64,000 nt of DNA, from contig JAOACR010000011.1 in the NCBI GenBank assembly GCA_026417735.1, positions 1 through 64,000 on the forward strand, read 5' to 3'. Source of the DNA: Kiritimatiellia bacterium. Its GTDB lineage: Bacteria > Verrucomicrobiota > Kiritimatiellia > PWTM01. The notes under the pieces are model-generated. The model was not told the DNA's origin. It worked only from the letters and a program-made list of their open reading frames with translations, and ran no database searches. This document shows, piece after piece, positions 32,301 through 57,511 of the stretch (position 1 is its first letter; each line of letters opens with the position of its first letter). Both the position numbers and the translations under genes were made by a program.

Positions 32301-35243
32301 AAGGTCCCAGCTCAGGTCGGTCTCCTCCTGCGCCAGCCAGGTGATCGGCGTGAAGCCGGTCGCCGCATCCACATCCGAGTCCACCTCATCATCGCCGCCC
32401 TGGTCACGCGGGCTGACCGTGTAGGCGGACGGAATCTCAAACACGGCGTAGTAGTTGCCGCGGTCCAGGTTCGGGAACACGTAGTAGCCGGGCTGGCCGT
32501 AGAAATCGTCCGCGGTGACAGTGAACCCAACGTAGCGGTCCTCGTTCGTGTTGATGATGCCGTCCGGGAAACCGCCCGGTCCGCTGTCCTCGTAGAACCG
32601 CACGCGGATGCCATTCACGCCGACCTCGCCGGGGTCCTGGATGCCGTTCTTGTTCAGATCAAACCAGACGCGGTTCCCATAGACCGCGTTCGTATCCGGC
32701 CGCACCCAGATGCCGACTTTGATCGGTTCCGACGGCAGCAGCTTCGATCCGGTGTCCACTCGCGTGCCGGAATACCCGAACGAGTTCCACGCCACGCGGC
32801 CGTCGGTCGGCGTTCCCACCGGCGAGCGCATTGGCCAGGAGAGCTCAAACTCCTGCCCCGGCTGAATCACGATGTTAGTGAACACGAACAGCAGCGAGCG
32901 GGCGTCGGTGATCGTCGCCGGCGGATTTGTGCTCCAGCCGGGGGGCATCGAGCCCGGCGGGCCAGACGGCACAAAGTCGGGCCGCGCCGGATTCATCTCG
33001 CGGCTGTAATAGACGACGACACCCGTCGGCGCCACCACCGGGCCTGCCAGCGCGGCTTTCCACTGCGTGTCGCGAGCGGAGAGGTCAATCACGCCGGTGT
33101 CGCCAATCGCCGGCAGGATATCGAGCACCTGCACGTCTCGAATCGGCACGTTGCCGGTGTTCTTCACAATCAGCCGGTAGTCGGCCCGCCCTCCCGGCAC
33201 CGTCATGCCGGCGTCCGGATATCTGGACCAGTCGCTGTCGAGCTCGCCGCGGACCCATTTCACCGAATCCATCGAGGCCCGCGCGCGGATGGTGACGGTC
33301 GCCCGCCGATAGTACACGGTCTCGGTTTTGTTGCCGTCACTGTCGAGGTCAAAGGTGTCCGGCGTGCCGGTCAGGTTGGCGTTGTCCAGCGCGCTGTTCG
33401 CCCATTGCGCGAGCGTCGCATCGTTGGTGACGGTGCCATAGAGTGCGCCGGAGGGAATCCGCGCCCGGAACCGCAACTCGATGAAGCTGTTGATCGGCAG
33501 CGAATACGCGGAAGCGCCCGTCCACTTCCACCGCAAAAGCATTCGACCGCTCCCCCCGTGGTTCGGGACCGTTTCGAACACCGGATCCGGTGCGCCCGCC
33601 GGCTTGCTGACAATCGTATAGCTGCCGACCTCGTACACGAGACGCGGATCCAGTAGATCGGCGAGCACCGGATTGACCAGCGGCTCTGCGGCCTCCGATC
33701 GGTTGGTCAACCGAATCGTGAAGGTCGCGGTGTCGCCATCGTTGTACGTCGAGTTGTCCGCGCTTTTCGTTATCTCTGCCACAGGCCGCTGCGTCAGCAC
33801 CGGCAGCGTCGCCACCGCGACACGGCTGGTCGCAGTACCCAACGGCGCCTCGTATGAGAGCCGCGCGGTGTTCGTGATCACCGTGCCGGCAGTAACGGGT
33901 TGCCCATCCCGATTCGTCGCGAGAATCGTCGAAGCAAACTGCAGACTTCCAATCGAATATCCAGGCGGCAGAGTGCCGAAGTTCCACATGATCGCCGTCA
34001 CATCCTCGCCCGGCCCCAGTCCAAGGCTCGATACCGCAATCGTCACCGAGGAGGTGCCCGGATAAGGATTGCCCGGCGCCGGCAGCCAGGTGCTGCCACC
34101 AGTTTTCATGTAGAACACGCTGATCGGACTGTGCAATCCGGGCGGCGTACCGCTCGGCTGACCCACATTGATCGAGGTCACTCGAACTTCCCGCGGAATC
34201 GCATCCGTCACGACCACATTGTGTATCGGCATGGTGCCGGTGTTCTGCAGCGTGAAGGTCCAGTTCTTTGCAACCGGCTTACCTTCATACACGTAGCTCT
34301 GATTGACACCTTTCGAGAACGACGAGGACGCCTGAGCCAGCGCGGCCGTATGAACCGCGATCGCCGTCAGATTGGTCGGCGGCCGGCCCAACGGCGTCAC
34401 TGTGGCGGAGACCTGGTTGGTGATCCGCGCACCCAGCGGAAACGCTCCGGATGGATACCGCACTGTCAGTGTTCGCGAAAGCGAAGATCCCGCGCTGAGA
34501 GTTGCAGCCGTCCACGTGACCATCTGGGGGGGGCCGGCGCTGTACATGCCTCCACCGCTCGCCGCCACAAACACGGCGCCGGAAGGCAGCGCATCCACTA
34601 GTGTCACGTTGGTGAGATTGAGCGATCCCACTGTCTGATTGTTGTTCAGCGTGATCGTGTAGGTCACGTTCTCGTCCAGCGGCACTGTCCCCCCCGCCAG
34701 AGTTTTCGACAACGTCGCCCGGTTGGTCGCCAGCGCGGTAATCGTCACCGGTGGAGCGGTCGCGGGCGGCGCATTACTGGAACTCATTGTCGCTGTGTTG
34801 GTGGCAATCGTACCGGATAGGGTGGAACCGGGTGTGAAACGCACCTGCACCTCAATCTCGCCCGTGCTTCCTGCCGGCAGCGGGTTGATGAAGCGAATGC
34901 GCAGCAGCCGGTTGGATGCGGTGTACGTATAGGAGTCCACATGGACGGTACCGGTCAATCCTTGAAACTCAAGGCCCGGAGGCAACACATCGTCGAGGAT
35001 CACACCGTGAAAGTTGGTCACAGTGCTCGCAGCCCGGTATCGCAGGATGTAGGCAAACGATTGACCCGTGGGAACCGTCGTCAGCCCATCCTTTACCAGC
35101 TTGGTGATCTCGAGGCCCGTTTGTGCGCTGCTGGTTAGCGCCAACGCTCCAATCGCCGCCGTAACGCGGATACGCCACCCCACCGCGGCGCCGCAGCCCA
35201 CTCCCCGCGCCGTCCCCTCGTTCTTCAGCTCCAGTGTTTGCAT
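26391..35243 (-). CDS. giant secreted surface protein: DUF11, SdrD_B, DUF2341/LamG, CARDB
   Basis: 2950 residues. A leader (VTAAIGALALTSSAQ, residues 28-42) is followed by several DUF11-type Ig-like domains with ITK/LSK starts and LPPGLEF or LPSGAVF cores up to about 840. Next come an SdrD_B (Cna-B-like) domain near 850 and four more at about 1100-1560 (GDRVWxDxNxNGVQDxGExGVPGV). Two DUF11 domains are interrupted by a DUF2341 plus split-LamG module (about 1584-1915 and 2383-2713), with three DUF11-like repeats between them. The C-terminus is a CARDB domain (about 2832-2950). There is no sortase, PEP-CTERM or T9SS tail. It is probably an adhesin or S-layer-like protein. GGAGAGG lies upstream of the ATG. 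Confidence 0.88.
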   Translation of the reverse strand: MQTLELKNEGTARGVGCGAAVGWRIRVTAAIGALALTSSAQTGLEITKLVKDGLTTVPTGQSFAYILRYRAASTVTNFHGVILDDVLPPGLEFQGLTGTVHVDSYTYTASNRLLRIRFINPLPAGSTGEIEVQVRFTPGSTLSGTIATNTATMSSSNAPPATAPPVTITALATNRATLSKTLAGGTVPLDENVTYTITLNNNQTVGSLNLTNVTLVDALPSGAVFVAASGGGMYSAGPPQMVTWTAATLSAGSSLSRTLTVRYPSGAFPLGARITNQVSATVTPLGRPPTNLTAIAVHTAALAQASSSFSKGVNQSYVYEGKPVAKNWTFTLQNTGTMPIHNVVVTDAIPREVRVTSINVGQPSGTPPGLHSPISVFYMKTGGSTWLPAPGNPYPGTSSVTIAVSSLGLGPGEDVTAIMWNFGTLPPGYSIGSLQFASTILATNRDGQPVTAGTVITNTARLSYEAPLGTATSRVAVATLPVLTQRPVAEITKSADNSTYNDGDTATFTIRLTNRSEAAEPLVNPVLADLLDPRLVYEVGSYTIVSKPAGAPDPVFETVPNHGGSGRMLLRWKWTGASAYSLPINSFIELRFRARIPSGALYGTVTNDATLAQWANSALDNANLTGTPDTFDLDSDGNKTETVYYRRATVTIRARASMDSVKWVRGELDSDWSRYPDAGMTVPGGRADYRLIVKNTGNVPIRDVQVLDILPAIGDTGVIDLSARDTQWKAALAGPVVAPTGVVVYYSREMNPARPDFVPSGPPGSMPPGWSTNPPATITDARSLLFVFTNIVIQPGQEFELSWPMRSPVGTPTDGRVAWNSFGYSGTRVDTGSKLLPSEPIKVGIWVRPDTNAVYGNRVWFDLNKNGIQDPGEVGVNGIRVRFYEDSGPGGFPDGIINTNEDRYVGFTVTADDFYGQPGYYVFPNLDRGNYYAVFEIPSAYTVSPRDQGGDDEVDSDVDAATGFTPITWLAQEETDLSWDLGLWLPPTAVKIMKTAGTAPDGGVHWFVPGTAVTYRYVVINTGELPLVRLTVTDDRLGVVGTIAGPLMPGATSVLTKVSGPLSAGVTNIGSVVGHPADPQGREIPGAPPVRSNDPAVVMPLAAIGDRVWYDVNRNGVQDAGESGVPGVTVVLYNALGAPVATNTTDASGLYLFEGLMPGDYSVGFVLPAGYAFTLRDQGGDDARDSDADTSTGRTVLTNLEAGEYDRSWDAGLWRPAAIGDRVWLDTDRDGVQDPGEPGIPGVTVTLYDGSGNVVATTTTDGSGNYLFDQLVPGDYSLGFTPPPGYAFSPRDQGGDDAKDSDADVTTGRTILTRLDPGETDRTWDAGLYLRPASLGDRVWHDLNANGVQDAGEPGVPGVTVRLYDANSNVVATTTTDANGNYLFSELTPGDYSVGFTLPPGYAFSARDQGGNDAQDSDADPSTGRTIVTTLEPGENDLTWDAGIWQPASLGDFVWFDVNQNGVQDAGEPGVPGVRVVLLQGGVPIASTVTDVNGLYRFDLLQAGTYEVEFDLSTLPAQYKPTVRGPIGGPDPTDSDADVNTGRTGPITLSWGQHDPSWDLGIVPRSADVSLTKQRQPIAEYPNKWTIPLSKGQQFVDGDYWLRLEYDQPSFDVWGPGNLKSGVNISKGWHHLAGRFRRGPNSWGPHTMEILVDGVVVATRTATGTTDPSTAPLVLGAYLGNSYWFAGLMDEVRLSRGARSDAWLRATVAQQRDPAAFVALGAEQPGSLPGYAHRRVLTVNGALVSSPLTNFPVLVSLTDPFLMTKVQRPDGADISFTLPDGTPLAHEIELFSRDSGRLVAWVRLPLLASGTPTDFVIHYGHSSPPPPAYAPSAVWDDGFMMVQHLNEASGPVRDSTTNGNHGVVSGATPTPWGITDGAFAFDGLDDKITIPDHPTLQLNSTDFTIELWVSRRAVAADYLFQLTVRNDGPDPADGVVIADPLAPAFRLVSATATRGVYAEPPGLWTIGTLGVGETATLWIAASARGCGPLTNLAEVAAQQTPDPDSTPNNRAPGEDDLASVVVPGPTGALARVQLIVRAGAAADGQILTIPAGDPVVYTYQVRNTGSAHLADIAVTDSRLGSIGTILGPLAPNASVTLTATVASVSEAVTNVGSVTARPVGPGGVELPCDTGPVSATDDAIVHIAVPPPPTPGLSVVKIAVGAADGAVLTVVNGSPVTYIYTVRNTGNVALTNIVATDDKLGAVGSVPSLPAGGSLSWTARLDSATADVTNVVAVTAQYGAQTLTARDDAVVRVTDPAPAIQVVKIALGAADGAVLSVEAGANVTYSYTVRNIGNVPLSNVTVTDDKLGTVGTVASLPVGGQAVLTKTALNVQADVVNVATATGQYGPTTVSAQDDAAVVVVAPSGADLSLRKEVVTNLVPPVQWCIPISKGEQFVDGDYWLRLEHNEPSFDVWGPGNLKSGIEITRGWHHVVGRLTRGPAAWGPHKLEILVDGVVVATRTASGTIDHSTAPLILGAYLGNSHWFGGRMDEVRISKRARSTAWLLTTWRSIARAGEFVQVGPEQPGTLPGYARQLPITVRGAQVAGTLAQFPVLVQLTNAALQVAKADGSDLVFTLPSGEVLPFEIELFDATTGRLTAWVALPLLQAGMDMPFLLQYGNPGALSLANPSAVWDGDFVLVQHFDELVGPVQDSTAFANHGTAYGASRTELGLAGPAYRFNGTSDKIVIPDSASLHLDTTSFTIEAWFNRSALEAQHTFRLTVANGGPATAPLVAVADLLPSELRYLGSTASAGAYNPSNGLWIVGSLPPGRSATLHIEVDRRVSGTVTNTAEVVSAGIADPDSTPNNGLPGEDDQASAAVPGTSSPPPSGGGGYVEPPDFKVNSIAFVPDPLTRGGTFTARVTIENAGAAGAPGRLAVWIHKPAAAVPGEVSDASVSVGVMAKGESRTIEFPGLVAPTAKGTYTFRAFIDADGAVAEKSEGNNQKTRTYGFY
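30890..31960 (-). repeat. tandem SdrD_B-coding repeats, period about 345 bp
   Basis: Four consecutive domains within the giant gene begin near 31940, 31590, 31245 and 30905. Stretches such as the one coding DQGGDDAxDSDADxxTGRT are nearly identical in DNA between copies, including wobble positions, which indicates recent duplication or gene conversion. A fifth, more diverged copy lies near 32690. Confidence 0.8.
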
Positions 35244-35507: not shown

Positions 35508-38393
35508 TCATGGCAAGGTGACGCGAATGCGAAAGAACAGCGGTGCGCCAACATTTTCAGGCACCTCCACGACCCACTCGCCACCGGTACCGGGACGGTT
35601 AGTCTGGGCAGTCCACGAGGCGGCGGCCAGACTGACGCAGAGCTCCAAATGGTATCTGCGCTGCAACGAGGTGGGATTGAGCGACAGTCTCCAGCCAACC
35701 GGCGCGCGAGAAATCTGCAGACGTGGAATCGCGCTCTGCGCATTCGTCGGCGAAGTGTCCGCAATGAATTCCGCCCAGTTCGCATCGCCATCGCCATCAG
35801 AATCCTCCCCTTCGAGCTCCGTCCACGTTTGCGGCGGCGTCGGCAGCAGCCCATGCTGAGCAAACCACTCCAGCGGAACCTGCCGCGCCGTGTGGAACTC
35901 TGCGAGCACCTGGAACGAGTTGGTCACGGGGCCGTCGCGCCTTGGATTGTCCACCCGCCCGTCGCTCCAACGGTGGAACTGCGCGCCTGCCGGCGCCACG
36001 GCCAGCACCGGAGTGCCTGTGGTCGCGTGAGGGATCGACTGCGTCGCCACTCCTGAAATTGAACCACTTACGCTGACCCCATACCGGACCACGTAAACGT
36101 TCGTCCCAAACAGAGCGATCAGTGTCCGATGGCGATCGGCTTCGAACGCAATGACCGGATTGGTCGCAACGGCGGCGCCGTTTTCGGTCCACCTGCGGAA
36201 GTGGTAGCCGTAAGAGGGCGTTGCATTCAATTGTACCGTGTCGCCGGGCAAATACCGCCCTGCGCCGGCGACAGAGCCTGCATTCGAATCGTTCGGCGAC
36301 GCAGCGATATCGAAAAAGGAAGCCAGCTTCGCCAGGTAGGCGGACGGACGGCCCCCGGCCAGCCCGAAGGCACCGCCCACCAGGATGCCTCCATTGCCGT
36401 CCGATGCCAGCGCGTAGACATAGAGGGCGGTGAAGTCAGGCGCACCAAAGGGGGCTTCATCTTGAACGCCCGACCCCCGTCCCGACCACTGCAAACCATC
36501 CCATCGCGCGATGTTGTTCGCCGGGACACCGCCGGCCTCGGAAAACTGCCCTCCCGCGTATAGCGCCCCAGATGGACAGCGGCGCAACGCGAACACCCCG
36601 TCACCCTCAATCCCCGCTCCCAGCGCCTGCCAGACGCCGTCACGCCAGAGCGCCACCCGCTCCGCCGGCTGTCCGCCCGCCTGCGAAAACTTCCCCGCCA
36701 CAACAAGCCCTCCGCCCGGTGCGCGTTCGATCGCCCAGACCTCGCCGTCCAGTCCGCCTCCGACCGGCGCCCACTGCACGCCATTCCAACGGGCGATCCG
36801 GTTTGCCGCCGTCCCACCCGCGGTCGTGAAACTCCCCCCCGCATACAGGTCGCCATTGTCATCCACAAAAAGGGTATACACCGGCCCGTTCATCCCCGTT
36901 CCGAGCGGCCGCCATCGCGTGCCATCCCATTCCGCCACGCGCGCCGCATTCGTGCCGCCTGCCGTTGTAAACACCCCCCCGGCGTAGAGCCGGTTGGTCG
37001 CCGGCACCGCCAGCGCATACACCGCGCCGTTCATTCCGCTGCCGAGCGCGCGCCACCCTCCCCCCTCGAGCACCGCGACACGGTTGACGCTCGCCGTGCC
37101 GGAAGCCAAGAAGTCCCCCCCCGCATACAGTCGCCGGTCGGCCCCCATCGCCAGAGCGTACACCCAGCCATCGAACCCCTCGCCCACCGGGCTCCACACG
37201 CCCCCCGACCACTTCGCCACATGCCGAACCCGCCGCTCGTCCAGCACCTGAAACCCACCTCCCGCGAACACATCCAGACTCACCGGATCGGTCACCAACG
37301 TCAGCACTGGCCCATCAAAACCCGTCCCGAACGGAACCCAGTCTGTGCCGTTTCTCACCATCACGTGCGGCATGAACACACCGTCGGCGCTGCGGAAGGG
37401 ACCCGCCGCATGCAGCCGGCCGGTGAGCGGACAGACCGCCAACGCATGCACCGGATCGTCACACTGCGCCACCGTGTTCCACTGCACGCCGTCCCAGACC
37501 GCAATGACACCGGAACCCGGCGCCATCCCCCCGCCGAGCCAGAGACGGCCGTCCAACCCCACCGCAACCGCCCGCACCGTCGCCGGCGCCCCACCCCCGA
37601 TCGCCGACCAGCCCGTCTGGTTCCACCGCGCCACACGGTTGGCCGCCGCACCGCCTGCGCTCGTAAACTCGCCACCCGCCACAAGATGTCCGTTCGTATC
37701 CAGCACGAGCGCCCGCACGGGCCCGTTCATCCCGCTCCCCAACGAACTCCACGACGTCCCGTTCCACCGCGCCACCCGCGCCGCAGCGACGCCACCAATG
37801 TTCGTGAACGCCCCGCCCGCATACAGTGTACCGTCCGCCGCCACCACCAGTGCCCAAACTTCCGCACCAGCGGTGCCAATCGTCGTCCACGCGACGCCAT
37901 TCCACATCGAGACCGACGCCGGAGTGCCATGCGCTGCAAACACGCGTCCGAGCCCGTCCACCGCGATCGCATGCACCGCGCCCGAGACCCCGGCGCCCAG
38001 CGCCTCCCACATCGCGCCATTCCATCGCGCAATGCCGTTTGCAGAGACGCCGCCGGCGCTGGTCAGTGCCCCCCCCACCAGCAGCCGCCCCTGCCCGTCG
38101 AGCGCAACTGCCCGGATCTCCCCATTCACACCGCTTCCCAGCGGCTGCCACCGGCCCCCCTCCCAACGGGCCACCCGGCTGACGCTCTCATTACCAATGA
38201 GCGTGAAACTTCCGCCGATGAACACCGTGCCGTCCGCCGCGACCGCAACTCCGTTCACCGGTCCGTTGATGTCGGGACGTATCGGCCCCCCGAGCGGCGT
38301 CCAGTGTTCATCGCGAAAACCGGCCATCGCCCCGAGCGCGCCCCACAACGCGCCCGCGAGCGCGGCTCTCCACCATGCCCGCTCCCCCAACAT
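35508..38393 (-). CDS. secreted beta-propeller protein with InlB-type repeat region
   Basis: 961 residues from the ATG at 38393, chosen for GAGAGG four bases upstream and because it opens directly on a signal peptide (ERAWWRAALAGALWGALGAMA). The frame also stays open for 46 codons upstream. The body contains about 14 units of roughly 45-50 residues with the pattern NGxVxALxxxxxGxLYxGGxFTxAGGxxAxRVARWNGxxWxxLGxG, which would make two seven-bladed propellers. After them come Listeria-Bacteroides/InlB-like repeats (YHFRRWTENG, FHRWSDG), a calcium-type DSDGDGDAN, and a Verrucomicrobia-style tail ending FFRIRVTLP. It is next to the giant surface protein on the same strand, so both may build the cell surface. 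Confidence 0.8.
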   Translation of the reverse strand: MLGERAWWRAALAGALWGALGAMAGFRDEHWTPLGGPIRPDINGPVNGVAVAADGTVFIGGSFTLIGNESVSRVARWEGGRWQPLGSGVNGEIRAVALDGQGRLLVGGALTSAGGVSANGIARWNGAMWEALGAGVSGAVHAIAVDGLGRVFAAHGTPASVSMWNGVAWTTIGTAGAEVWALVVAADGTLYAGGAFTNIGGVAAARVARWNGTSWSSLGSGMNGPVRALVLDTNGHLVAGGEFTSAGGAAANRVARWNQTGWSAIGGGAPATVRAVAVGLDGRLWLGGGMAPGSGVIAVWDGVQWNTVAQCDDPVHALAVCPLTGRLHAAGPFRSADGVFMPHVMVRNGTDWVPFGTGFDGPVLTLVTDPVSLDVFAGGGFQVLDERRVRHVAKWSGGVWSPVGEGFDGWVYALAMGADRRLYAGGDFLASGTASVNRVAVLEGGGWRALGSGMNGAVYALAVPATNRLYAGGVFTTAGGTNAARVAEWDGTRWRPLGTGMNGPVYTLFVDDNGDLYAGGSFTTAGGTAANRIARWNGVQWAPVGGGLDGEVWAIERAPGGGLVVAGKFSQAGGQPAERVALWRDGVWQALGAGIEGDGVFALRRCPSGALYAGGQFSEAGGVPANNIARWDGLQWSGRGSGVQDEAPFGAPDFTALYVYALASDGNGGILVGGAFGLAGGRPSAYLAKLASFFDIAASPNDSNAGSVAGAGRYLPGDTVQLNATPSYGYHFRRWTENGAAVATNPVIAFEADRHRTLIALFGTNVYVVRYGVSVSGSISGVATQSIPHATTGTPVLAVAPAGAQFHRWSDGRVDNPRRDGPVTNSFQVLAEFHTARQVPLEWFAQHGLLPTPPQTWTELEGEDSDGDGDANWAEFIADTSPTNAQSAIPRLQISRAPVGWRLSLNPTSLQRRYHLELCVSLAAASWTAQTNRPGTGGEWVVEVPENVGAPLFFRIRVTLP

Positions 38394-41752: not shown

Positions 41753-42157
41753 CTATGCGCGCCCCAACGAAAGGTCCCCGACGATCTTCCACACCGGCCC
41801 GTCCCGAACGAGCCGGAGCTCGCGATCCTGAAACGCCGCGGCCAGTTCGCGCTGCAACAACTCGAGCGCGCGATCCTCGATTTGCCGCCTCAGCGCCAAC
41901 GGCACCGGTCCGACCGTCCGCACGTCAAGCGTCACCACATATCCCGGCCCTGCCGCCGAACCTAATCCCGCGCTGAACGACGCGCTCAAATGGAACAGAC
42001 CCTCCGCGGTGTGGTCCACAATCGAGCCTGCGGGCGGTCGGCGCGGATCCCGCACCCCGACGGACCCGAACTCCGCTTCAAGCGCGCGGTCCACCCGGCC
42101 GAACATCTCGTGCAGCCGCCGTTCAAACTCCTCAACGGCGTGGTGCCGCAGTGTCAT
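41753..42157 (-). CDS. conserved hypothetical protein downstream of rlmB
   Basis: A 134-residue protein I do not recognise. It starts MTLRHHAVEEFERRLHEMFGRVD with an amphipathic helix, followed by strands (GYVVTLDVRTVG) and a helix (LRRQIEDRALELLQRELAAAF), ending VWKIVGDLSLGRA. There are no Cys pairs, signal or membrane segment, so it is probably a small cytosolic protein. Its ATG overlaps the methyltransferase stop (ATGA), so the two are translationally coupled. The frame is open far upstream, but that region is antisense to sense of the methyltransferase and is not used. Confidence 0.65.
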   Translation of the reverse strand: MTLRHHAVEEFERRLHEMFGRVDRALEAEFGSVGVRDPRRPPAGSIVDHTAEGLFHLSASFSAGLGSAAGPGYVVTLDVRTVGPVPLALRRQIEDRALELLQRELAAAFQDRELRLVRDGPVWKIVGDLSLGRA

Positions 42158-42942
42158 TGAGGCGGGAGCGACGCGTCGCGCTGCCGGCGCACCTCGTACA
42201 TCGCGATCGCCGCCGCGACCGCGGCATTGTAGGAGGCCACCTTCCCACGCATCGGAATTGCGACCGAGCCCGAACATGCCGCGCGAACCCGCTTCTGCAC
42301 GCCGTGTCCCTCCGCGCCCACCACGACCGCCAAGCCTCCGCGCAAATCCCATGCGTAGATCGGCCGCGCGTCCTCCGCCGCCTCGAGCGCCCAGCAGCGA
42401 ATGCCCCGCCGCTCCATCTCCGTCACTGCGTTCGCGAGGTTCGCGACCCGCGTCACCGCCAGGTGTTCCACCGCACCCGAAGAGGCCCGCACCACCGCCG
42501 GCGTGACGCCGCAGGCCCGGTCGCGAGCCAGCACCACGCCGTGCACCCCGGCCGCCTCCGCGGAGCGCATGATCGAACCGACGTTCTGCGGATCCTGCAG
42601 ATGATCCAGCACCACCAAAAACGGGGGCTCGTCCCTGTGACGCGTCGCCTCCAGCACCTCCTCGAACTCCGCCTCCTGAAACGGTTCCGCCTCGAGCACC
42701 ACGCCCTGATGATTCGCACTGGCGGTGCGACGGTCCAGCTCGGACTTCGGACACCGCCGCACCGGCACGCCGCGCCGCCGCGCCCACCCTTCAAGCGCCG
42801 ACACCGTCGGCCCCTCCCGCACCCCCTCGGCCACCCACAACGCGCGGCATCGGCGCCGCCCCGCCCTCAGCACCTCCAGCAGCACCTGCCGCCCGTACAG
42901 CCACTCCACTTCAGCCGGGCCCGATTCGCGTTGATGCATCAC
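42154..42942 (-). CDS. rlmB: SpoU-family 23S rRNA 2'-O-methyltransferase (RlmB/TrmH-like)
   Basis: A 262-residue SPOUT methyltransferase that probably methylates a guanosine ribose in 23S rRNA. The N-terminal substrate-binding domain has VEWLYGRQVLLEVLRAGRRR and the HQGVVLEA boundary. The SpoU motifs follow: QDPQNVGSIMRSAEAAG (motif 1, Asn and Arg), VVVGAEGHGV (motif 2) and IPMRGKVASYNAAVAAAIAMYE (motif 3, with SYN in place of the usual SLN). RlmB is likelier than TrmH because of the N-terminal domain, but the exact target base cannot be read. Two adjacent ATGs (42942 and 42939) are possible starts. Confidence 0.85.
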   Translation of the reverse strand: MMHQRESGPAEVEWLYGRQVLLEVLRAGRRRCRALWVAEGVREGPTVSALEGWARRRGVPVRRCPKSELDRRTASANHQGVVLEAEPFQEAEFEEVLEATRHRDEPPFLVVLDHLQDPQNVGSIMRSAEAAGVHGVVLARDRACGVTPAVVRASSGAVEHLAVTRVANLANAVTEMERRGIRCWALEAAEDARPIYAWDLRGGLAVVVGAEGHGVQKRVRAACSGSVAIPMRGKVASYNAAVAAAIAMYEVRRQRDASLPPQ

Positions 42943-42980: not shown

Positions 42981-44462
42981 ATGCCTCACACCAGTGCCAG
43001 TGGCCGGATCGCCGCCTTCACCGCCGTCCTCTGGCTGGCGCGCGGCGTCGCCGCGGACCCCGACACGACGCCCCCGCGCGATCCGGCCCCCACCGCGACC
43101 GACCCGATGGCGGAAATCGAGTCCGCGGTCGCCCGCATCCGCGCCAGCTACGAGCAGCTGCGGCTGCGCATGGACGAACAGGACCGCGAACTCCGCCGCG
43201 CGCGCGCGGCGCGACAAGCGGCCGAAGCGCGCCACCGCGAGCTGGAAGGCCGCGTGCGCGAGCTGGAGGCCGAGAACATCTCGCTGCAGGCGCGCATCAG
43301 CCGGCTGCAAACCGATCTGGAAGAAGCCCATCGCCGCGCAGAGCTGGCCACCACGGAGGCGCGCGGGCTGGACGAGCGGCTGCAAACCGTGCAGCGCGAC
43401 CTGCGGCGCCTCACGCAGGAACGCGACGAGCTTGCCGCCTCGCTGCAACGCGAACGCGCCCGCGCGGACGAGGCGGAGAGCGACCGCCTTCGTCTGCGCG
43501 CGGTCGTCCGCGATCTCGAGCGGCGCGTGCGCAGCGCCACCGAGCCGGACGCCCCGCCGCCCGAAGCCGCCGAGCCCGCGCAGGAAGTCACGATGCCGCC
43601 TCCCGCCCCTCCGCCCACCGCCGAGCCGGCGGTGGAGGCCACGACCACCACCCTCACCGTCGCACCGCGGCCGGTACCGGAGCCGCCCGCCAGCATCGTC
43701 GCCACCACGTCGAGCGGCACCGCGCTCCTGCCGATGCCGCCGGCCGGATGGACGAATCCTCCGCCCGTTCCTGTGCCCGTCCTCTCCGCCACCGGCGGGG
43801 CAACGGCCGTCGCCGTGCTCACCACCGCCGCCCCGCCCTCCGAGGCCGCCCCTGTGCCGATGCGGCTAGTTCCGGTTGAAGAGGTCGATGAGTCCCGGCT
43901 CACTCAACTGCTTCTTCAGGCGGCGACTGCCCGCGAGGAGCGCCGCTGGGAGGAGGCCCGCACACTCTACGAGGAAGCTCTGCGGCTGCGCCCGGGTGAT
44001 CCCTCGGCCGCCACGGGCTTGGCGGAAACGTTGCTGGCGCTCGGCGATCTGGCCGCCGCCGAGCGGCAGGCACAGCAGCTGCTCGCCGCCGCGCCGGACC
44101 ACCCCGACCGGCTGCTGCTGGCCGGCACTGTCGCCGCGCGCCGCAGCCGCCACGATGAGGCGGTCCGATACCTGCGCCGCGCCCGCGAGCTCGCACCGCT
44201 GCGCGCGGACATCGCGCGGGAACTCGGCTCCGCGCTCCACGATGCGGGCCGCTACGACGAAGCCGCCGCCACCTTCATCGCCGCCGCCGGCCTGGAGCCG
44301 GACGACTCCCTCTCGTGGTTCAACGCCGCGGTGTGTCTGCTCAAAACCGATCCCCCCAAACGACAGCGCGCGGCTGAATGCTACCGCCGTGCGATCGAAC
44401 TTGGAGAGCCCAAAGATGAACGGATCGAACAACGATTGCGGGAACCGGATGTGGCGCCCTGA
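42981..44462 (+). CDS. secreted coiled-coil and TPR protein, first of three
   Basis: 493 residues. A weak signal peptide (GRIAAFTAVLWLARGVAA, residues 8-25) is followed by a coiled coil (about 45-190) of Arg/Glu-rich heptads. A proline/threonine linker (190-300, with PPPAPPPTAEP) leads to about four TPR units at the C-terminus (TQLLLQAATAREERRWEEARTLYEEALRLRPGDP, ADIARELGSALHDAGRYDEAAATF). The last residues ELGEPKDERIEQRL resemble the end of the next protein. It diverges from rlmB. The three-gene set probably builds an envelope scaffold; no function is known. Confidence 0.75.
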   Translation: MPHTSASGRIAAFTAVLWLARGVAADPDTTPPRDPAPTATDPMAEIESAVARIRASYEQLRLRMDEQDRELRRARAARQAAEARHRELEGRVRELEAENISLQARISRLQTDLEEAHRRAELATTEARGLDERLQTVQRDLRRLTQERDELAASLQRERARADEAESDRLRLRAVVRDLERRVRSATEPDAPPPEAAEPAQEVTMPPPAPPPTAEPAVEATTTTLTVAPRPVPEPPASIVATTSSGTALLPMPPAGWTNPPPVPVPVLSATGGATAVAVLTTAAPPSEAAPVPMRLVPVEEVDESRLTQLLLQAATAREERRWEEARTLYEEALRLRPGDPSAATGLAETLLALGDLAAAERQAQQLLAAAPDHPDRLLLAGTVAARRSRHDEAVRYLRRARELAPLRADIARELGSALHDAGRYDEAAATFIAAAGLEPDDSLSWFNAAVCLLKTDPPKRQRAAECYRRAIELGEPKDERIEQRLREPDVAP

Positions 44463-46476
44463 CCTGCTGCGCCGCGGCGCCGCGCTCGCGCTGCTTGTGC
44501 TGCTGCCCCTCGCCGCGAACGCACAGTCGGGCGAGCTGCCGGAAAAACCCGCCTATCAGCAAATGCTGGCCGGCGACCGCGCGCTGGAGGCCGGCGACGC
44601 GCCCCGTGCGCTCGGCGCCTACCAGGAGGCGCTCACGCTGTTCGAGCGGCTCCGCCGCGAGCGGCCGAATTACAAGCCGGCCGCCATCGAATACCGGATG
44701 GACTACTGCCGCAAGCGAATCGCAGCACTGCTCGGTGATCCCGCGGTGCAGGCCGCCGCCGCTCAGCCGCGCGCGCCCGCGCCGGCCGACCGGCTGCGCG
44801 AACTGCAGGCCTCCCTCGAACAGCTCCAACGTGAACGCGAGAGCCTCCAGCACGAGCTCGCCGAACTCCGCCGGCAGCTCGAGCGCGCAACCTCACGGGC
44901 CGACAGCGCGGAGGCGAATCTGGCGGAGCTTCGCGCCCAGCTCGCCGCCACGCAGCAACAGTCCGCCGCACTGGAGCGCGAGCTGGCCGCCGCTCGCGCG
45001 AATGTGCCGGTCGCGGAACACCGCGAAGCGCTCGCCGCACTGCGCGCCGCCGAAACCGAGCGCGCCGCGCTCCAGCGCCGCGTCGAGGCCGCCGAACGCA
45101 CCACCACCGCGCTGCAGGAGCGCCTCGCCGCCGCCGAGTCGCGGGCGCGCGAACTGGAGGCCACCGTGGCGGACCCCGCCCGGCTCACCGCGCCCTACGA
45201 GCAGCAGCTGCGCGAGGCGCGCGAGCGCGCCGACGCCGCCGCGCGTCGCGAGGCGGCCACCGCCGCCCGCGCGGAATCGCTCGCGGCGCAGCTCCACGCC
45301 GCACGCGAGGAAATCGCCGCGCTGAAAGCCTCCGCCACCTCCGCAGCGCGCGGCGGCGACACCGCACCCGCCCGCGAACTGCAGCAGGTCACCGCCGAAC
45401 GCGACGCGGCCGCCGCGGAGGTCGCACGGCTGCGCACCGAGCTGGAGCGCCTCGAGGCGGAACGCCGCGACGACCGCGAACGCATCCGCGAACTTGGCCG
45501 CGCGCTGAAAAGCGCCGCGGAACCGGCAGCGCGCGCGGAACAGGAACTGCGAGCACTGCTGGAAAAAACGATCGCAGAGCGCGACGCCGCCCGCGAACAG
45601 GCCGCCACGCTCCAGCTCCGCGTGCGCGAGCTCGAGGCGGCCCGAACCGAATCGCCGGAGCCCGCCGCCAACACCGATGCCGCACTCGCGGAAACACGCG
45701 AGCAGCTTCGCCGCTCCGAAGCCCGCCTCCAGGCGCTCGCCGCGAAACTCGATCTGCGCGACCGCGAAGCTCGTGAGGCGGAACGCGAACGCGACGCGCT
45801 CCGCCAGGAGCTTGAACGCGTGCGCGCGGAACGCGACCGCCTTCAGGAATCTGCCACGCGCCGCCCCCCGGAGTCGTCCCCCACCACGACCGCGACGCCG
45901 CCGCCCATCCCAGAGTTGCCGCCCGAACTGCAGCAGCAGCTGGAGACCGCCGTCTCCCTGCTGGCCTCCAACCAGGTCGCGCCGGCGCTGGACCTCTTCG
46001 ATCGCGTGCTGAGTGCCGCGCCCGATCACCCGGACGCGCTGCTCGGCTACGGCCGCGCCGCGCTCGCGCTCGGCCAGCTGCGCCCCGCCCGCGCCGCCGC
46101 CGAGCGTCTGACCGACCGCCACCCCCAGCTCGCCGCCGGTCACCATCTGCTGGGACTCGTCGAGGCGCGCGACAACAACCGCCGCGCCGCCGGCCGCGCG
46201 TTCGCAAAAGCCGTCGCGCTGGAGCCGAACAACCCGACCTACCACCGCGATTTCGCGATCGCCTGCTACAAGCTCAACCGACTCGACGACGCGATCGCGG
46301 AATACCGCGAGGTGATCCGGCTTCATCCGAACGACGGCCAAGCGCACTTCAACCTCGCCGCGCTGCTGATGAGCCTGCCCAACCCGCCGCTGGAAGAGAT
46401 CCGCGCACTGTACCGCCGCGCCCGCGAGCTGGGAGAGCCGCCAGATGCGCAGCTCGAACAACGCCTCGGGCTCTGA
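44416..46476 (+). CDS. secreted coiled-coil and TPR protein, second of three
   Basis: 686 residues from the ATG at 44416 (GGAG nine bases upstream), overlapping the previous gene by 47 bases in another frame. The leader is DLLRRGAALALLVLLPLAANA, then QSGELPEK; an ATG at 44449 would give a more classical signal peptide. Residues 35-105 look like a TPR pair (AYQQMLAGDRALEAGDAPRALGAYQEAL), residues 120-480 a very long coiled coil, and 500-680 contain TPR units (HLLGLVEARDNNRRAAGRAFAKAVALEPNNPTYHRD). It ends RRARELGEPPDAQLEQRLGL. It is paralogous in layout to its upstream neighbour. Confidence 0.75.
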   Translation: MNGSNNDCGNRMWRPDLLRRGAALALLVLLPLAANAQSGELPEKPAYQQMLAGDRALEAGDAPRALGAYQEALTLFERLRRERPNYKPAAIEYRMDYCRKRIAALLGDPAVQAAAAQPRAPAPADRLRELQASLEQLQRERESLQHELAELRRQLERATSRADSAEANLAELRAQLAATQQQSAALERELAAARANVPVAEHREALAALRAAETERAALQRRVEAAERTTTALQERLAAAESRARELEATVADPARLTAPYEQQLREARERADAAARREAATAARAESLAAQLHAAREEIAALKASATSAARGGDTAPARELQQVTAERDAAAAEVARLRTELERLEAERRDDRERIRELGRALKSAAEPAARAEQELRALLEKTIAERDAAREQAATLQLRVRELEAARTESPEPAANTDAALAETREQLRRSEARLQALAAKLDLRDREAREAERERDALRQELERVRAERDRLQESATRRPPESSPTTTATPPPIPELPPELQQQLETAVSLLASNQVAPALDLFDRVLSAAPDHPDALLGYGRAALALGQLRPARAAAERLTDRHPQLAAGHHLLGLVEARDNNRRAAGRAFAKAVALEPNNPTYHRDFAIACYKLNRLDDAIAEYREVIRLHPNDGQAHFNLAALLMSLPNPPLEEIRALYRRARELGEPPDAQLEQRLGL

Positions 46477-47356
46477 GCCGGCCGCGCTCGCGATCGCACT
46501 GCGCCTCATGCTCGCGATCGCGACGCTCGCGCGGGCGCAGGCGCCCTCGGACGGCGCCGGGAGTGACCCGCTCGCGTTTCGGCTGCAGGCCGTCGAACAG
46601 GCCGCCGCCGCGCTGCGGCGCAGGGCCGCCGACCTGGCGGAGGAGCTCGAACGCCTCCGCGCCGACAATGAAACGCTGCGGCGACGGCTCGACGAGGCGA
46701 ACACCCGCCTGGCCGCGGTCACCCGCGTCGCGGCGGCCGCGGAGGCCGAACGCGCCGATCTGCTTCGGCAAGCGCGCGACGACGCTGCTCGGATCCGCGC
46801 ACTGGAAGCCCGCCTGGCCGCCGCCCCCGCCGCCGAATCGCCCGGCACCCGCGAGCTCCGATCCCTGCTCGAACAGCGAACCCGCGAGCTGGCCGAACTC
46901 CGTCGGCGCGTCGCAGAACTCGAACGCGACAGCCGCCAGTCGGGCGCCCCCGAGCGCTCGCCGCCGGCCGCGCCGCAGCCGGAGGAGATCCAACGTCTGC
47001 ACCAAATGTTCGCGGCGGAAAAGCAGACGTGGAAATCGCTTCACGAGCTTGCCGAACAGCAGCGCCTTGAAGCGGAGGCCGAGCGGGACCGCCTCCGGGA
47101 GGAACTGCGCCGCACGCTCGCCCGGCTGGACGACCTTGAGAACCGGCTGCGCGCTCGTGACGAGGCCCGCACCGCCGGGCCCGAAAAGGGCGACAGCGCG
47201 CTGCGGGAGCAGCTCGATCGCGAGCGTGCAGCCAGGGAACTGGCGGAAATCAAGGCGGAAGCGTTTCGCCGCGCCTGGATGAACGCGCGAGCCGCCGGCG
47301 CCGAGGCCACGAATCCGCCCGCTCCACCCCCCGACGCCCCCCGCCGCCTGCGCTGA
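46445..47356 (+). CDS. secreted coiled-coil protein, third of three
   Basis: 303 residues. The leader (ALAIALRLMLAIATLARAQ, to about residue 32) is followed by a coiled coil over almost the whole length (VEQAAAALRRRAADLAEELERLRADNETLRRRLDEA, ELRSLLEQRTRELAELRRRVAELERD, LREQLDRERAARELAEIKAEAF) and a short proline tail. No TPR is present. Its first codons MRSSNNASG overlap the preceding gene by 32 bases and match MNGSNNDCG of the second gene, which also lies in an overlap. Hence the start at 46445 is likely correct. Function unknown. Confidence 0.7.
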   Translation: MRSSNNASGSEPAALAIALRLMLAIATLARAQAPSDGAGSDPLAFRLQAVEQAAAALRRRAADLAEELERLRADNETLRRRLDEANTRLAAVTRVAAAAEAERADLLRQARDDAARIRALEARLAAAPAAESPGTRELRSLLEQRTRELAELRRRVAELERDSRQSGAPERSPPAAPQPEEIQRLHQMFAAEKQTWKSLHELAEQQRLEAEAERDRLREELRRTLARLDDLENRLRARDEARTAGPEKGDSALREQLDRERAARELAEIKAEAFRRAWMNARAAGAEATNPPAPPPDAPRRLR

Positions 47357-53826: not shown

Positions 53827-53978
53827 CGCTCGATTCTCCTGCAACAGATCTTAGCATGCGGAACCTGCCGGCGCGGAGAACACACGACTCCTTGTGCGCG
53901 ACGAGCACCTCTCCTATGCTGCAGCCAGGACCGGCCGCGCGGACGCCGCAGTCGCGGTTGGGCGAAGGGGGCCACACC

Positions 53979-55430
53979 ATGTGCCGGGCAGTCTGGCTGG
54001 CGACAGCGCTGGCGGGTGTTGCCGGATCGCAGAGTCCGGTACCCGCGGCCGAACGTCCCCACATCATCTTCGTGATGGCCGACGATCTCGGCTGGGCACA
54101 GACCGGCTATCGGGGCCATCCGGTCTTGAAGACCCCCCACCTCGACGCCATGGCGGCCGCCGGGCTGCGGTTCGAACGCTTCTACGCAGGTGGTCCCGTC
54201 TGTTCCCCCACCCGCGCCACAGTGCTGACCGGCCGCACCCACGACCGCTGCGGAACGTTGAACCACGGCCATGCGCTGCGGCGCCAGGAGAAAACGATCG
54301 CACAGGCGCTGGCTGCGGCCGGCTACCGCACCGCCCACTTCGGCAAGTGGCACCTCAACGGTTTGGCCGGTCCCGGCGTGCCGGTGCTCGCCAGCGATGA
54401 ATACCATCCGGGCGTCTTCGGTTTCGAGGAGTGGGTGTCGTCCTCGAACTACTTCGACCGCGACCCGCTGCTCGGCCGTCGCGGAACGGTCGAGCAGTTT
54501 CAGGGGGACTCCTCAGAAGTGATCGTCGCGGAAGCGATCCGCTACCTTCGCGAGCAGGTCGGCACCGGCCGTCCGCTGTTTCTGGTGATCTGGTACGGCT
54601 CGCCGCACAGCCCCTGGCGCGCCTCGCCGCCGGACCGCGCCGCGTTTGCATCGCTTGGGCCGGACTCGGCCGAGCACCACGGCGAGATCGTCGCGATGGA
54701 CCGCAGCCTCGGTGCGCTGCGCGCCGCGCTCCGCGAACTGCGGATCGCGGAGAATACGCTGCTGGTGTTCTGCAGCGACAATGGAGGCCTGCCGAAGATC
54801 CGGCCCGACACCGTCGGCGGATTGCGCGGGCACAAGGGCACGCTGTACGAGGGCGGTATCCGCGTGCCGGGCATCATCGAGTGGCCGGCGGTGATCCGGC
54901 CACGCGTCACGAAGTTCCCCGCCTGCACGATGGATCTGTTCCCCACCGTCGCCGACATCCTCGGGCTGGCGCCGGAGGTGTTCATTCAACCCATCGACGG
55001 CATCAGCCTCCGACCGCTGTTTGAGCGCGAGCTCCCCTCCCGTTCCCGCCCGATCGGCTTCCGCTATCAGCGCCAGGCCGCCTGGATCGCGGACCGATGG
55101 AAGCTCGTGGTGCCGAAGTTTCCAGACGGGCCCGCCGAGCTCTACGACCTGGAGACGGATCCGGCGGAGAGCCGCGATCTCAGCGCTGAGCAGCCGGCGA
55201 TCGCGGAGCGGATGAAGGTGGAGCTGCTGCAGTGGCTGGCCAGCGTCGAGGCGAGCTTTGCCGGCCGCGACTACCCCCAGCGGCAGCTCGAGCGCCCCGA
55301 TCCACCGCGGACGATGTGGTGGAACTCGCCACTCTACCAGCCCTATCTCGAGGCGTGGCGCGCGCGCTGGGAATACGCGAAGGTGCTCGCCACACCGCGC
55401 CGCGGTCCGCGCGAGGATGAACCGCCGTGA
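53979..55430 (+). CDS. secreted sulfatase 1 (S1 family)
   Basis: 483 residues with a signal peptide (VWLATALAGVAGSQSPVPAA). The sulfatase signature is CSPTRATVLTG with Cys75 as the formylglycine precursor and Arg79; metal ligands are Asp35/Asp36 (MADDLGWA) and CSDNGG, and GKWHL holds the conserved Lys and His. The C-terminal subdomain has AAWIADRWKLVVPKFPDGPAELYDLETDPAESRDL. It hydrolyses a sulfate ester, presumably on a sulfated polysaccharide, outside the cytoplasm. The maturation enzyme is not in the window. The ATG at 53979 follows AAGGGG; longer frames upstream are not sulfatase. Confidence 0.93.
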   Translation: MCRAVWLATALAGVAGSQSPVPAAERPHIIFVMADDLGWAQTGYRGHPVLKTPHLDAMAAAGLRFERFYAGGPVCSPTRATVLTGRTHDRCGTLNHGHALRRQEKTIAQALAAAGYRTAHFGKWHLNGLAGPGVPVLASDEYHPGVFGFEEWVSSSNYFDRDPLLGRRGTVEQFQGDSSEVIVAEAIRYLREQVGTGRPLFLVIWYGSPHSPWRASPPDRAAFASLGPDSAEHHGEIVAMDRSLGALRAALRELRIAENTLLVFCSDNGGLPKIRPDTVGGLRGHKGTLYEGGIRVPGIIEWPAVIRPRVTKFPACTMDLFPTVADILGLAPEVFIQPIDGISLRPLFERELPSRSRPIGFRYQRQAAWIADRWKLVVPKFPDGPAELYDLETDPAESRDLSAEQPAIAERMKVELLQWLASVEASFAGRDYPQRQLERPDPPRTMWWNSPLYQPYLEAWRARWEYAKVLATPRRGPREDEPP

Positions 55431-55448
55431 AACTGCGCGCACACTGCG

Positions 55449-55952
55449 GTGCTGCCGCAGACCACCGCGTGCAGCGCAACGACCCCGCCCACGACGCGAC
55501 CGAATTTCCTCATTGTGCTCCGGGACGATGACACCGCGCACAACCTGCCGCCCCTGGCGGACCGATCGCCCGCACGCCGTCGCCGGAGCGTCTTGCGCGC
55601 GAGGGGCGCGTGCTCGACCGCGCCGACGTCAGCAGAGCGATGTGCCGGCCGCACCGCGCAGAGCTCCGCTCGGGCCTGTTTCCGCGGCCCAACGCATGTG
55701 CCTGGAACCACCCCGCTTCGTCGCCCGGCCCCCCTCTGCCTCCCCACCGCGGCGCGGCTGTGGCCGATGGGGCGCCACATGCGCCGGCTGGCTGAGGAGT
55801 TCTGCAACACTGCCGCGGAATCGCCGGACTTGAACCCCCGCGCCGAAGACCCCGTCTGCGTGACGATCCGCGTGCCTCGCCACAGGACACGCGACCGGTC
55901 GGATTTTGATGCCGCAGTGGATAGAATGAGGGCGGTCACGGCCGCTTGCTAA
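55449..55952 (+). pseudogene. degraded sulfatase gene
   Basis: In one frame at 55493-55540 the sequence reads RPNFLIVLRDDDTA, the N-terminal strand and metal-binding DDD of a sulfatase. From about 55570 the continuation is found in the next frame: AREGRVLDRADVSRAMCRPHRAELRSGLFPRPNACAWNH, where CRPHR is the CxPxR formylglycine motif. That frame hits a stop at 55793-55795. The downstream 150 bases keep only unalignable sequence. The gene has therefore lost its frame and most of its C-terminus and cannot make an active enzyme. It lies between two intact sulfatase genes and was probably one of them or a paralogue. Confidence 0.8.
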
Positions 55953-56008
55953 GCGGCACGACCACAGCGGCAGGGAGACTCGGAACCGCCGGATCGGAGG
56001 AATCGACG

Positions 56009-57511
56009 ATGAAGCACATGCGGACGTTGTGCCCGGTGATCGTCGCGTTCGTCAGCTCGGTCGCCGTCGCAGGTGCGGCGGAACGACCAAACTTTCTGGT
56101 GATCCTCTGTGACGATCTCGGCTGGGGCGACCTGGCCTGCTACGGGCACCCTCACATCCGAACTCCGAACCTCGACCGCCTCGCGCGGGAGGGCGTGCGC
56201 CTCACTAGCTGCTATTGCGCGGCGCCGGTCTGTTCGCCGTCCCGCGTCGGCCTGCTCACCGGCCGCGTGCCGGACCGGGCGGGCGTCTACGACTGGATCC
56301 CCGAGGCCCGGACGGACGGGCGGCCGCGCGCGGATGGGCGGGACGCCGTCCACCTGCGCCGCGGCGAGGTCACGCTGCCGAGCGTGCTGAAGCAGGTCGG
56401 GTATGCGACCGCGATGAGCGGCAAATGGCACTGCAACTCCATGTTCAACCGCCCCGAACAACCGCAGCCGGGCGACGCGGGCTTCGACCACTGGTTCGCG
56501 ACACAGAACAACGCCACGCCCTCGCACGAAAATCCGGTGAACTTCGTTCGCAACGGTGTGCCGGTGGGGCCGCTGACCGGATTCAGTTGCCGACTCGTCG
56601 CCCGCGAGGTGATCAATTGGCTCGACGATCTGCGGCGTCGGGAGCCGGCACGCCCATTCTTTGCCTACGTCGCGTTCCATGAACCCCACGAGCCCGTCGC
56701 CTCGCCGCCCGACCTCGTGCGGCACTACGCGGACGTAGCGCGAAACGACAACGAGGCGCAGTACTTCGCCAATGTCGAAAACATGGACGGGGCGGTCGGC
56801 GAACTGCTCGACGCGCTGGAGCGCCTGCGCGTCGCGACGAACACGCTCGTATTCTTCTCCAGCGACAACGGCCCGGAGACGCTGAACCGCTATCAGGCGG
56901 CGAGCCGCTGCTACGGTTCGGCCGGGCCGCTGCGCGGCCGCAAATTGTGGACCACCGAGGGCGGCATCCGCGTACCCGGCATCCTGCGCTGGCCGGCCCG
57001 CGTCGCGCCGGGTCGGGTCTGCGACGAGCCGATCAGCTCGCTCGACCTGCTGCCGACCTTTGCGCGCCTGGCCGGCGCCGTGCTGCCCGCGGGCCTGGAA
57101 CTGGATGGCACCGATCTCACGGGCTGGCTCGCCGGCGCCCCCCTCGAGCGCCGAAAACCGCTCTACTGGGCGTACTACAACGCGATCAACGACCAGCGCA
57201 TCGCCATGCGGGACGGTCCGTGGAAGGTGCTCGCTCGTCTGGAGGATGCCAACGGGGCGGTGGTGCCGAGAATGGAGAACATCACCGAGGCGACGGTCGG
57301 TCGCGTTCGCGCCGCGCGACTTGGTGGAGTGTCCGTGTTTCGGCTCCCCGACGATGTTGGTGAGTCCCGCGATCTCTCGCGCGACCTCGGAGCGCAGCGC
57401 GACGAGCTGCAACGCCGGCTCGAACAGCTGCATCAGGAAATCGTCGCGTCGATGCACGTCTGGCCAGCGCCGAAAGCCGCCATCGGCGCAGCGACCGGGT
57501 CGCGGCATTGA
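56009..57511 (+). CDS. secreted sulfatase 2 (S1 family)
   Basis: 500 residues with leader MRTLCPVIVAFVSSVAVAGA. Asp35/Asp36 (LCDDLGWG), the signature CSPSRVGLLTG with Cys75 and Arg79, GKWHC, AFHEPHEPV and FSSDNGPE are present. The C-terminus has RIAMRDGPWKVLARL and DVGESRDLSRDL. The long DEx insertion (PEARTDGRPRADGRDAVHL, about 100-125) is typical of extended loops in exo-acting sulfatases. The ATG at 56009 has GGAGGAA upstream. Its stop overlaps the start of sulfatase 3, so they are coupled. The substrate is unknown. Confidence 0.93.
   Translation: MKHMRTLCPVIVAFVSSVAVAGAAERPNFLVILCDDLGWGDLACYGHPHIRTPNLDRLAREGVRLTSCYCAAPVCSPSRVGLLTGRVPDRAGVYDWIPEARTDGRPRADGRDAVHLRRGEVTLPSVLKQVGYATAMSGKWHCNSMFNRPEQPQPGDAGFDHWFATQNNATPSHENPVNFVRNGVPVGPLTGFSCRLVAREVINWLDDLRRREPARPFFAYVAFHEPHEPVASPPDLVRHYADVARNDNEAQYFANVENMDGAVGELLDALERLRVATNTLVFFSSDNGPETLNRYQAASRCYGSAGPLRGRKLWTTEGGIRVPGILRWPARVAPGRVCDEPISSLDLLPTFARLAGAVLPAGLELDGTDLTGWLAGAPLERRKPLYWAYYNAINDQRIAMRDGPWKVLARLEDANGAVVPRMENITEATVGRVRAARLGGVSVFRLPDDVGESRDLSRDLGAQRDELQRRLEQLHQEIVASMHVWPAPKAAIGAATGSRH

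Follow-up and report, generated by a model that had tools for sequence, protein, structure and literature searches.

Three consecutive genes for exported coiled-coil proteins (A, B and C) in a 64,000-nucleotide stretch of DNA from a Kiritimatiellia bacterium (the window) are joined by a repeated overlap, in which the start codons of B and C, each preceded by a Shine-Dalgarno (SD) sequence, are written in the +1 frame into codons for a conserved motif at the end of the upstream TPR domain. The overlaps are conserved among relatives, the SD is present in excess at such junctions, and loss of the overlap is accompanied by loss of both SD and ATG. We consider it likely that A, B and C form one operon beside the divergent rlmB-like gene, and that B and C are each initiated at a ribosome binding site (RBS) and ATG embedded in the TPR cap, with matched output as the probable result. 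The features are listed in Table 1.

Table 1. Positions in the window of the A, B and C genes, their junctions and the adjoining gene.
Feature	Position	Strand	Description and basis
SpoU-type rRNA methylase (RlmB-like) gene, divergent	42154..42939	-	Pfam SpoU_methylase; synteny
Gene A	42981..44462	+	Signal peptide, coiled coil, C-terminal TPR; 493 aa; 4 relatives aligned
GGAG, putative ribosome binding site of B	44403..44406	+	Within Leu-Gly-Glu codons of A; sequence, SD scoring
Gene B	44416..46476	+	Signal peptide, N-terminal TPR-like module, long coiled coil, C-terminal TPR; 686 aa; AlphaFold2 model and N-terminal module HMM
ATG of B	44416..44418	+	+1 frame within A; Asp codon GAT plus next G
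A/B overlap, 47 nt	44416..44462	+	
GGAG, putative ribosome binding site of C	46432..46435	+	Within Leu-Gly-Glu codons of B; sequence, SD scoring
Asp677 codon and predicted terminal capping helix (residues 678-684) of B	46444..46467	+	Structure model; embedded ATG on Asp codon
Gene C	46445..47356	+	Signal peptide, coiled coil, without TPR; 303 aa
ATG of C	46445..46447	+	+1 frame within B
B/C overlap, 32 nt	46445..46476	+	

The two junctions are built alike. A ends in ...LGEPKDERIEQRLREPDVAP and B in ...LGEPPDAQLEQRLGL, with the ATG of the next gene 47 nt before the A stop (at 44462) and 32 nt before the B stop (at 46476); an earlier note on this DNA had placed the starts of B and C inside the final codons of the preceding gene, and both are confirmed there, in the +1 frame. 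Each embedded ATG falls on the Asp codon of the conserved C-terminal TPR motif LGExxD, with GGAG in the Leu-Gly-Glu codons: the Gly-Glu codons of LGEP are GGA GAG at both junctions, the Asp codon and the next base read GATG, and 9 nt separate GGAG from ATG. With the motif DNA of the A and B ends set in register (14 codons each), 30 of 42 bases are identical by hand count. These are the two longest overlaps among the 31 same-strand neighbor pairs called in the window, the next longest being 17 and 8 nt with seven pairs at 4 nt, as given by a home-made gene caller that awards starts a bonus for an SD and bars overlaps of more than 60 nt. The longest reading frame of the window, of 2950 aa and with a signal peptide, lies elsewhere (26391-35243, minus strand), as do a gene for a 961-aa exported beta-propeller-like protein (35508-38393, minus strand; Pfam Rax2, DUF5122 and a divergent InlB B-repeat), and three consecutive sulfatase genes (53916-59586, plus strand; Pfam PF00884).

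Comparison of nine species of the order, including that of the window, reveals the locus in eight, with no clear homologue in the ninth (G004, whose genome is 83% complete). There are several consistent features. First, the locus adjoins the divergent rlmB-like gene in all eight genomes. Second, A is present in five (the window, G001, G002, G003 and G006) and absent from G005, G007 and G008, where B adjoins rlmB, and the A/B start is embedded in all five genomes with A, the overlaps being 47, 47, 56, 38 and 65 nt. Third, the B/C start is embedded in six of the seven genomes with a visible C (32, 32, 32, 35, 32 and 32 nt); the seventh junction (G003, L037) is a 4-nt ATGA overlap at which the motif is spelled GGC GAA ... 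GAC, with neither the SD nor the ATG. (The G007 contig, L040, stops 303 nt after B, so that C cannot be judged, yet it was scored as not embedded.) Finally, the ATG is fixed on the motif across relatives and the position of the stop drifts, among B proteins that are 33–69% identical to that of the window. The earlier note had named relatives with downstream starts and unconserved overlaps as the case that would speak against it; none was seen, and the overlaps that it proposed seeking in relatives are kept.

The TPR alignment was also searched against 345 genomes of the class, of which 199 matched at E 1e-12 or better, many through general TPR proteins; the regions examined were 40 of the more than 150 listed matches, taken best first and mostly reaching the end of the model, together with 20 earlier regions and the window. 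These contain 68 reading frames ending in a TPR module, and in 14 of them an embedded +1 ATG leads into a long downstream frame; 11 of the 14 are in the order and the others in G047 (family f17), G022 (f15) and G012 (f5). Among the remaining 54 TPR ends, 44 have a G...[DN] motif and 10 do not. An SD, scored as at least four matching bases 4–12 nt ahead of the ATG position and not used to define the embedded group, is present at all 14 embedded junctions and at 3 of the 44 other motif-bearing ends (Fisher 6.7e-11, a p value that related rows make too small). Six of these 44 have an ATG at the same place, as all 14 embedded junctions do by definition, and none of the six has an SD (Fisher 2.6e-5, likewise made too small by related rows). 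A TPR cap at L109:3600-3750 (G036, family f17) has an AAT-G ATG in the +1 frame, whose frame is short and closed by a stop. The next gene begins immediately beyond the TPR stop, and the arrangement may represent a precursor or a remnant of an embedded start.

Such a motif might also give rise to these junctions by chance, if the codons of LGExxDE readily yield an SD-like string together with a +1 ATG and the resulting overlap is neutral rather than kept for coupling. Synonymous re-draws from each gene's own codon usage yield the ATG and SD in 0.03–0.31 of draws per junction, and passages of PMC3887535 put phase 1 at 31.6% of 400,363 overlapping pairs and hold that long phase 1 overlaps need no selection. 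Nonetheless, a chance by-product seems unlikely: SD and ATG occur together at 14/14 embedded junctions and 0/44 others, with the group defined independently of the SD, and they are conserved across genomes in which the B proteins have diverged as far as noted above.

The 16S rRNA tail GGATCACCTCC, with the usual anti-SD, is present in G003 and G004 (one genome of the genus and one of the family); a pattern search did not find the tail in the window's own genome, where RF00177 was also without a match. An SD precedes 21 of the 32 other starts called in the window (by a caller biased to SDs), and the accessibility of the SD-to-ATG region is 0.45 at the embedded starts and 0.41 at these 32. Masking of the downstream RBS by RNA structure was considered and rejected, as accessibility is ordinary and no masking hairpin demanding coupling was found; the start of B may simply act independently. 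Passages of PMC10666635 argue that termination-reinitiation coupling needs very short overlaps and give overlaps of ~10–60 nt as roughly four times rarer, and parts of that paper and of PMC3887535 describe long overlaps as rarer than short ones, with phase 1 prevailing among the long. Overlaps of similar length couple the coat and lysis genes of phages MS2 (-50 nt) and fr (-38 nt) (PMC12548453). We therefore regard the embedded starts as SD-led and probably coupled, the coupling, the initiation route and the partnership of the proteins being what we infer.

The mechanism may be outlined as follows. A single operon would yield three exported coiled-coil proteins, two of them with TPR domains, and the RBS and ATG of each downstream gene would be written +1 into the codons of the cap that ends the upstream TPR superhelix (LGExxD and a short capping helix). 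The in-frame motif would be kept for the fold of its own protein, and the selection among synonymous codons (for Gly, GGA or a different codon that forms an SD; for Asp, GAT rather than GAC) would make the cap an initiation site. A ribosome on the upstream gene would pass the start by 29–65 nt before stopping and so would clear the site first. Translation of the downstream gene could then be taken up either by the ribosome that has just terminated, after it moves backward, or by a new one loading onto RNA that has been opened locally. Matched output of partner proteins would be the likely purpose.

An AlphaFold2 model of B (pLDDT 82.6, pTM 0.36) predicts an N-terminal helical module, long helices (residues 123-481), a TPR superhelix (503-671) and, last, a capping helix (678-684). 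The codon for Asp677, immediately ahead of the capping helix, carries the embedded ATG, a placement that would give the in-frame LGExxD motif a structural reason. Foldseek matches the C-terminal domain of B to MamA (PDB 3vty, TMt 0.84) and TTC0263 (PDB 2pl2), which have this fold in common with B and align to its TPR part only. These are generic TPR matches, and for A, B and C the Pfam and NCBIfam hits were likewise confined to generic TPR and coiled-coil families; all three proteins fall far short of the NCBIfam equivalog cut-offs, so no function follows for them.

The earlier note had further proposed that the overlap DNA encodes two conserved peptides in two frames. However, in none of 17 comparisons (smallest p 0.088, with few codons in each, such that a weak effect could be missed) do identical residues share a codon significantly more often in the overlap than outside it, and dual coding was rejected on this measure; only the SD and ATG are therefore seen to be kept. 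That B and C begin alike, with MNGSNN and MRSSNN, is a consequence of the in-frame motif, and the out-of-frame peptides appear to be by-products of the conserved TPR cap.

Cassettes of a TPR-ending gene followed by a gene with the B-type N-terminal module were identified with an HMM built from six of the eight B proteins (those of the window and L039 were left out). There are 15 such cassettes, of which eight are embedded (five in the order and three outside), five have a 4-nt overlap (four ATGA and one TTGA, in families f12 and f21), and two have a short gap (L096 and L109). The junctions of L044, L045 and L108 are short gaps at which the next frame runs off the stretch, and these lie outside the module scan. 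The ORF list for the class regions consists of longest ORFs with some wrong-strand calls, and only homology-backed entries were used. The cassette downstream genes at L050:6322-11370 and L046:1576-5670 (minus strand) encode exported coiled-coil proteins of about 1360-1680 aa, with an N-terminal module as in B.

The hhalign alignment of A with B spans 418 columns (E 6e-39) and covers most of their length, and C matches B over 61 coiled-coil columns only; a Pfam search found no TPR domain in C. In a tree of 42 TPR modules, from which the last residues of the match were left out, support is 100/99 for the A rows, 95/88 for the B rows, 98/89 for A plus B of the order and 98/94 for 25 class rows. 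The position of B is not resolved in a smaller TPR tree, and AU tests do not reject grouping A with class A-type modules (p 0.115), or B with class B-type (0.221) or class A-type modules (0.118). The embedded state requires at least 5 changes on the tree, which we read as probably three gains and two losses, one loss being the unjudged G007.

A and B thus look like paralogues, and a local duplication that carried the overlap is favored, though not proven, by these comparisons; the A-B pair may be older than the order, because A-to-B cassettes occur in other families too. The proposal that the trio arose by tandem duplication of a gene together with its overlap holds in part, in that A and B are homologous and their TPR modules group together (98/89), as a local duplication would predict, but it is not supported for C, with its short coiled-coil match and no TPR, and the AU tests leave alternatives for A and B. 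In its full form – a single tandem duplication accounting for the trio and its overlap, with both frames conserved as coding peptides – it accommodates the A-B grouping and the long A-B alignment, and yet is very unlikely in view of the lack of a TPR in C, synonymous conservation that is not significantly raised in the overlap, the other groupings left possible by the AU tests, and the A-to-B cassettes of other families.

It is highly improbable that the true starts lie downstream, at 44449 for B and 46508 for C, and that the overlaps are annotation effects: ATGs do exist at these positions, and that at 44449 would give a short, charged signal-peptide start, but neither has an SD by eye, the 44449 ATG is absent from that place in every relative, and five of the 11 embedded downstream genes of the order (L035 B, L035 C, L036 C, L039 B and L041 C) have no other ATG, GTG or TTG before the signal-peptide core, with the further start codons of L035 B found only inside the hydrophobic core itself. 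The sole other start ahead of the core in L036 B is a TTG at codon 4. Later in-frame ATGs are also present in L037 B, L038 C, L039 C, L050 and L098, and the embedded starts of L050 and L098 are less sure because of them.

The combination of embedded RBS and start codon can be set beside several known systems. CpoB/YbgF proteins are exported and combine a coiled coil with TPRs, as here, but the proteins described here are much larger and their neighbor is rlmB in 8/8 genomes; no tol-pal gene was recognized among the neighbors viewed in the window. The 4-nt ATGA overlaps of termination-reinitiation pairs, which are used instead by the homologous cassettes in f12 and f21 and by L037 B/C, are in phase 2 and lack an SD embedded in the TPR cap. 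Long phase 1 unidirectional overlaps of prokaryotes, as described in portions of PMC3887535 and PMC10666635, share the phase and length class, but here a single conserved protein motif, with the SD inside it, sets the start position in paralogues and families alike. As a working analogue, the coat-lysis overlap of MS2 and fr serves best, and these junctions may work like it rather than be an instance of it. In the phages (PMC12548453) the downstream gene starts out of frame in the upstream end (here at -29 to -65 nt), and the arrangement is experimentally shown with RNA structure involved, whereas ours are cellular genes, in which no masking structure was found and a protein motif anchors the start at each of two successive junctions. 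Literature searches on Kiritimatiellae TPR/coiled-coil proteins, TPR-linked coupled overlaps and Kiritimatiell overlapping genes returned nothing useful on the locus.

Gene overlaps of this type are known, if uncommon; what is unusual is that this one recurs at a single protein motif. Drift is the usual explanation of long same-strand overlaps; in the present case the overlap falls each time on one structural motif, at two successive junctions and in several families, and the RBS is absent from 41 of 44 like motifs at which no gene starts. We tentatively suggest, with rather more reserve than for the operon and its embedded starts, that the TPR cap codons may be a portable initiation and coupling module, one that the class has acquired on at least three occasions and that has been copied with the paralogous TPR end: the fold would demand Leu-Gly-x-x-x-Asp/Asn-Glu, and a few synonymous choices would then suffice to provide an SD and ATG for the next gene. 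If true, the protein cap and the RNA signal would travel together. The motif-bound overlap and the RBS excess make selection on synonymous codons for starting a neighboring gene directly testable, and the locus offers a non-phage system for asking whether overlaps of about 30–65 nt couple translation.
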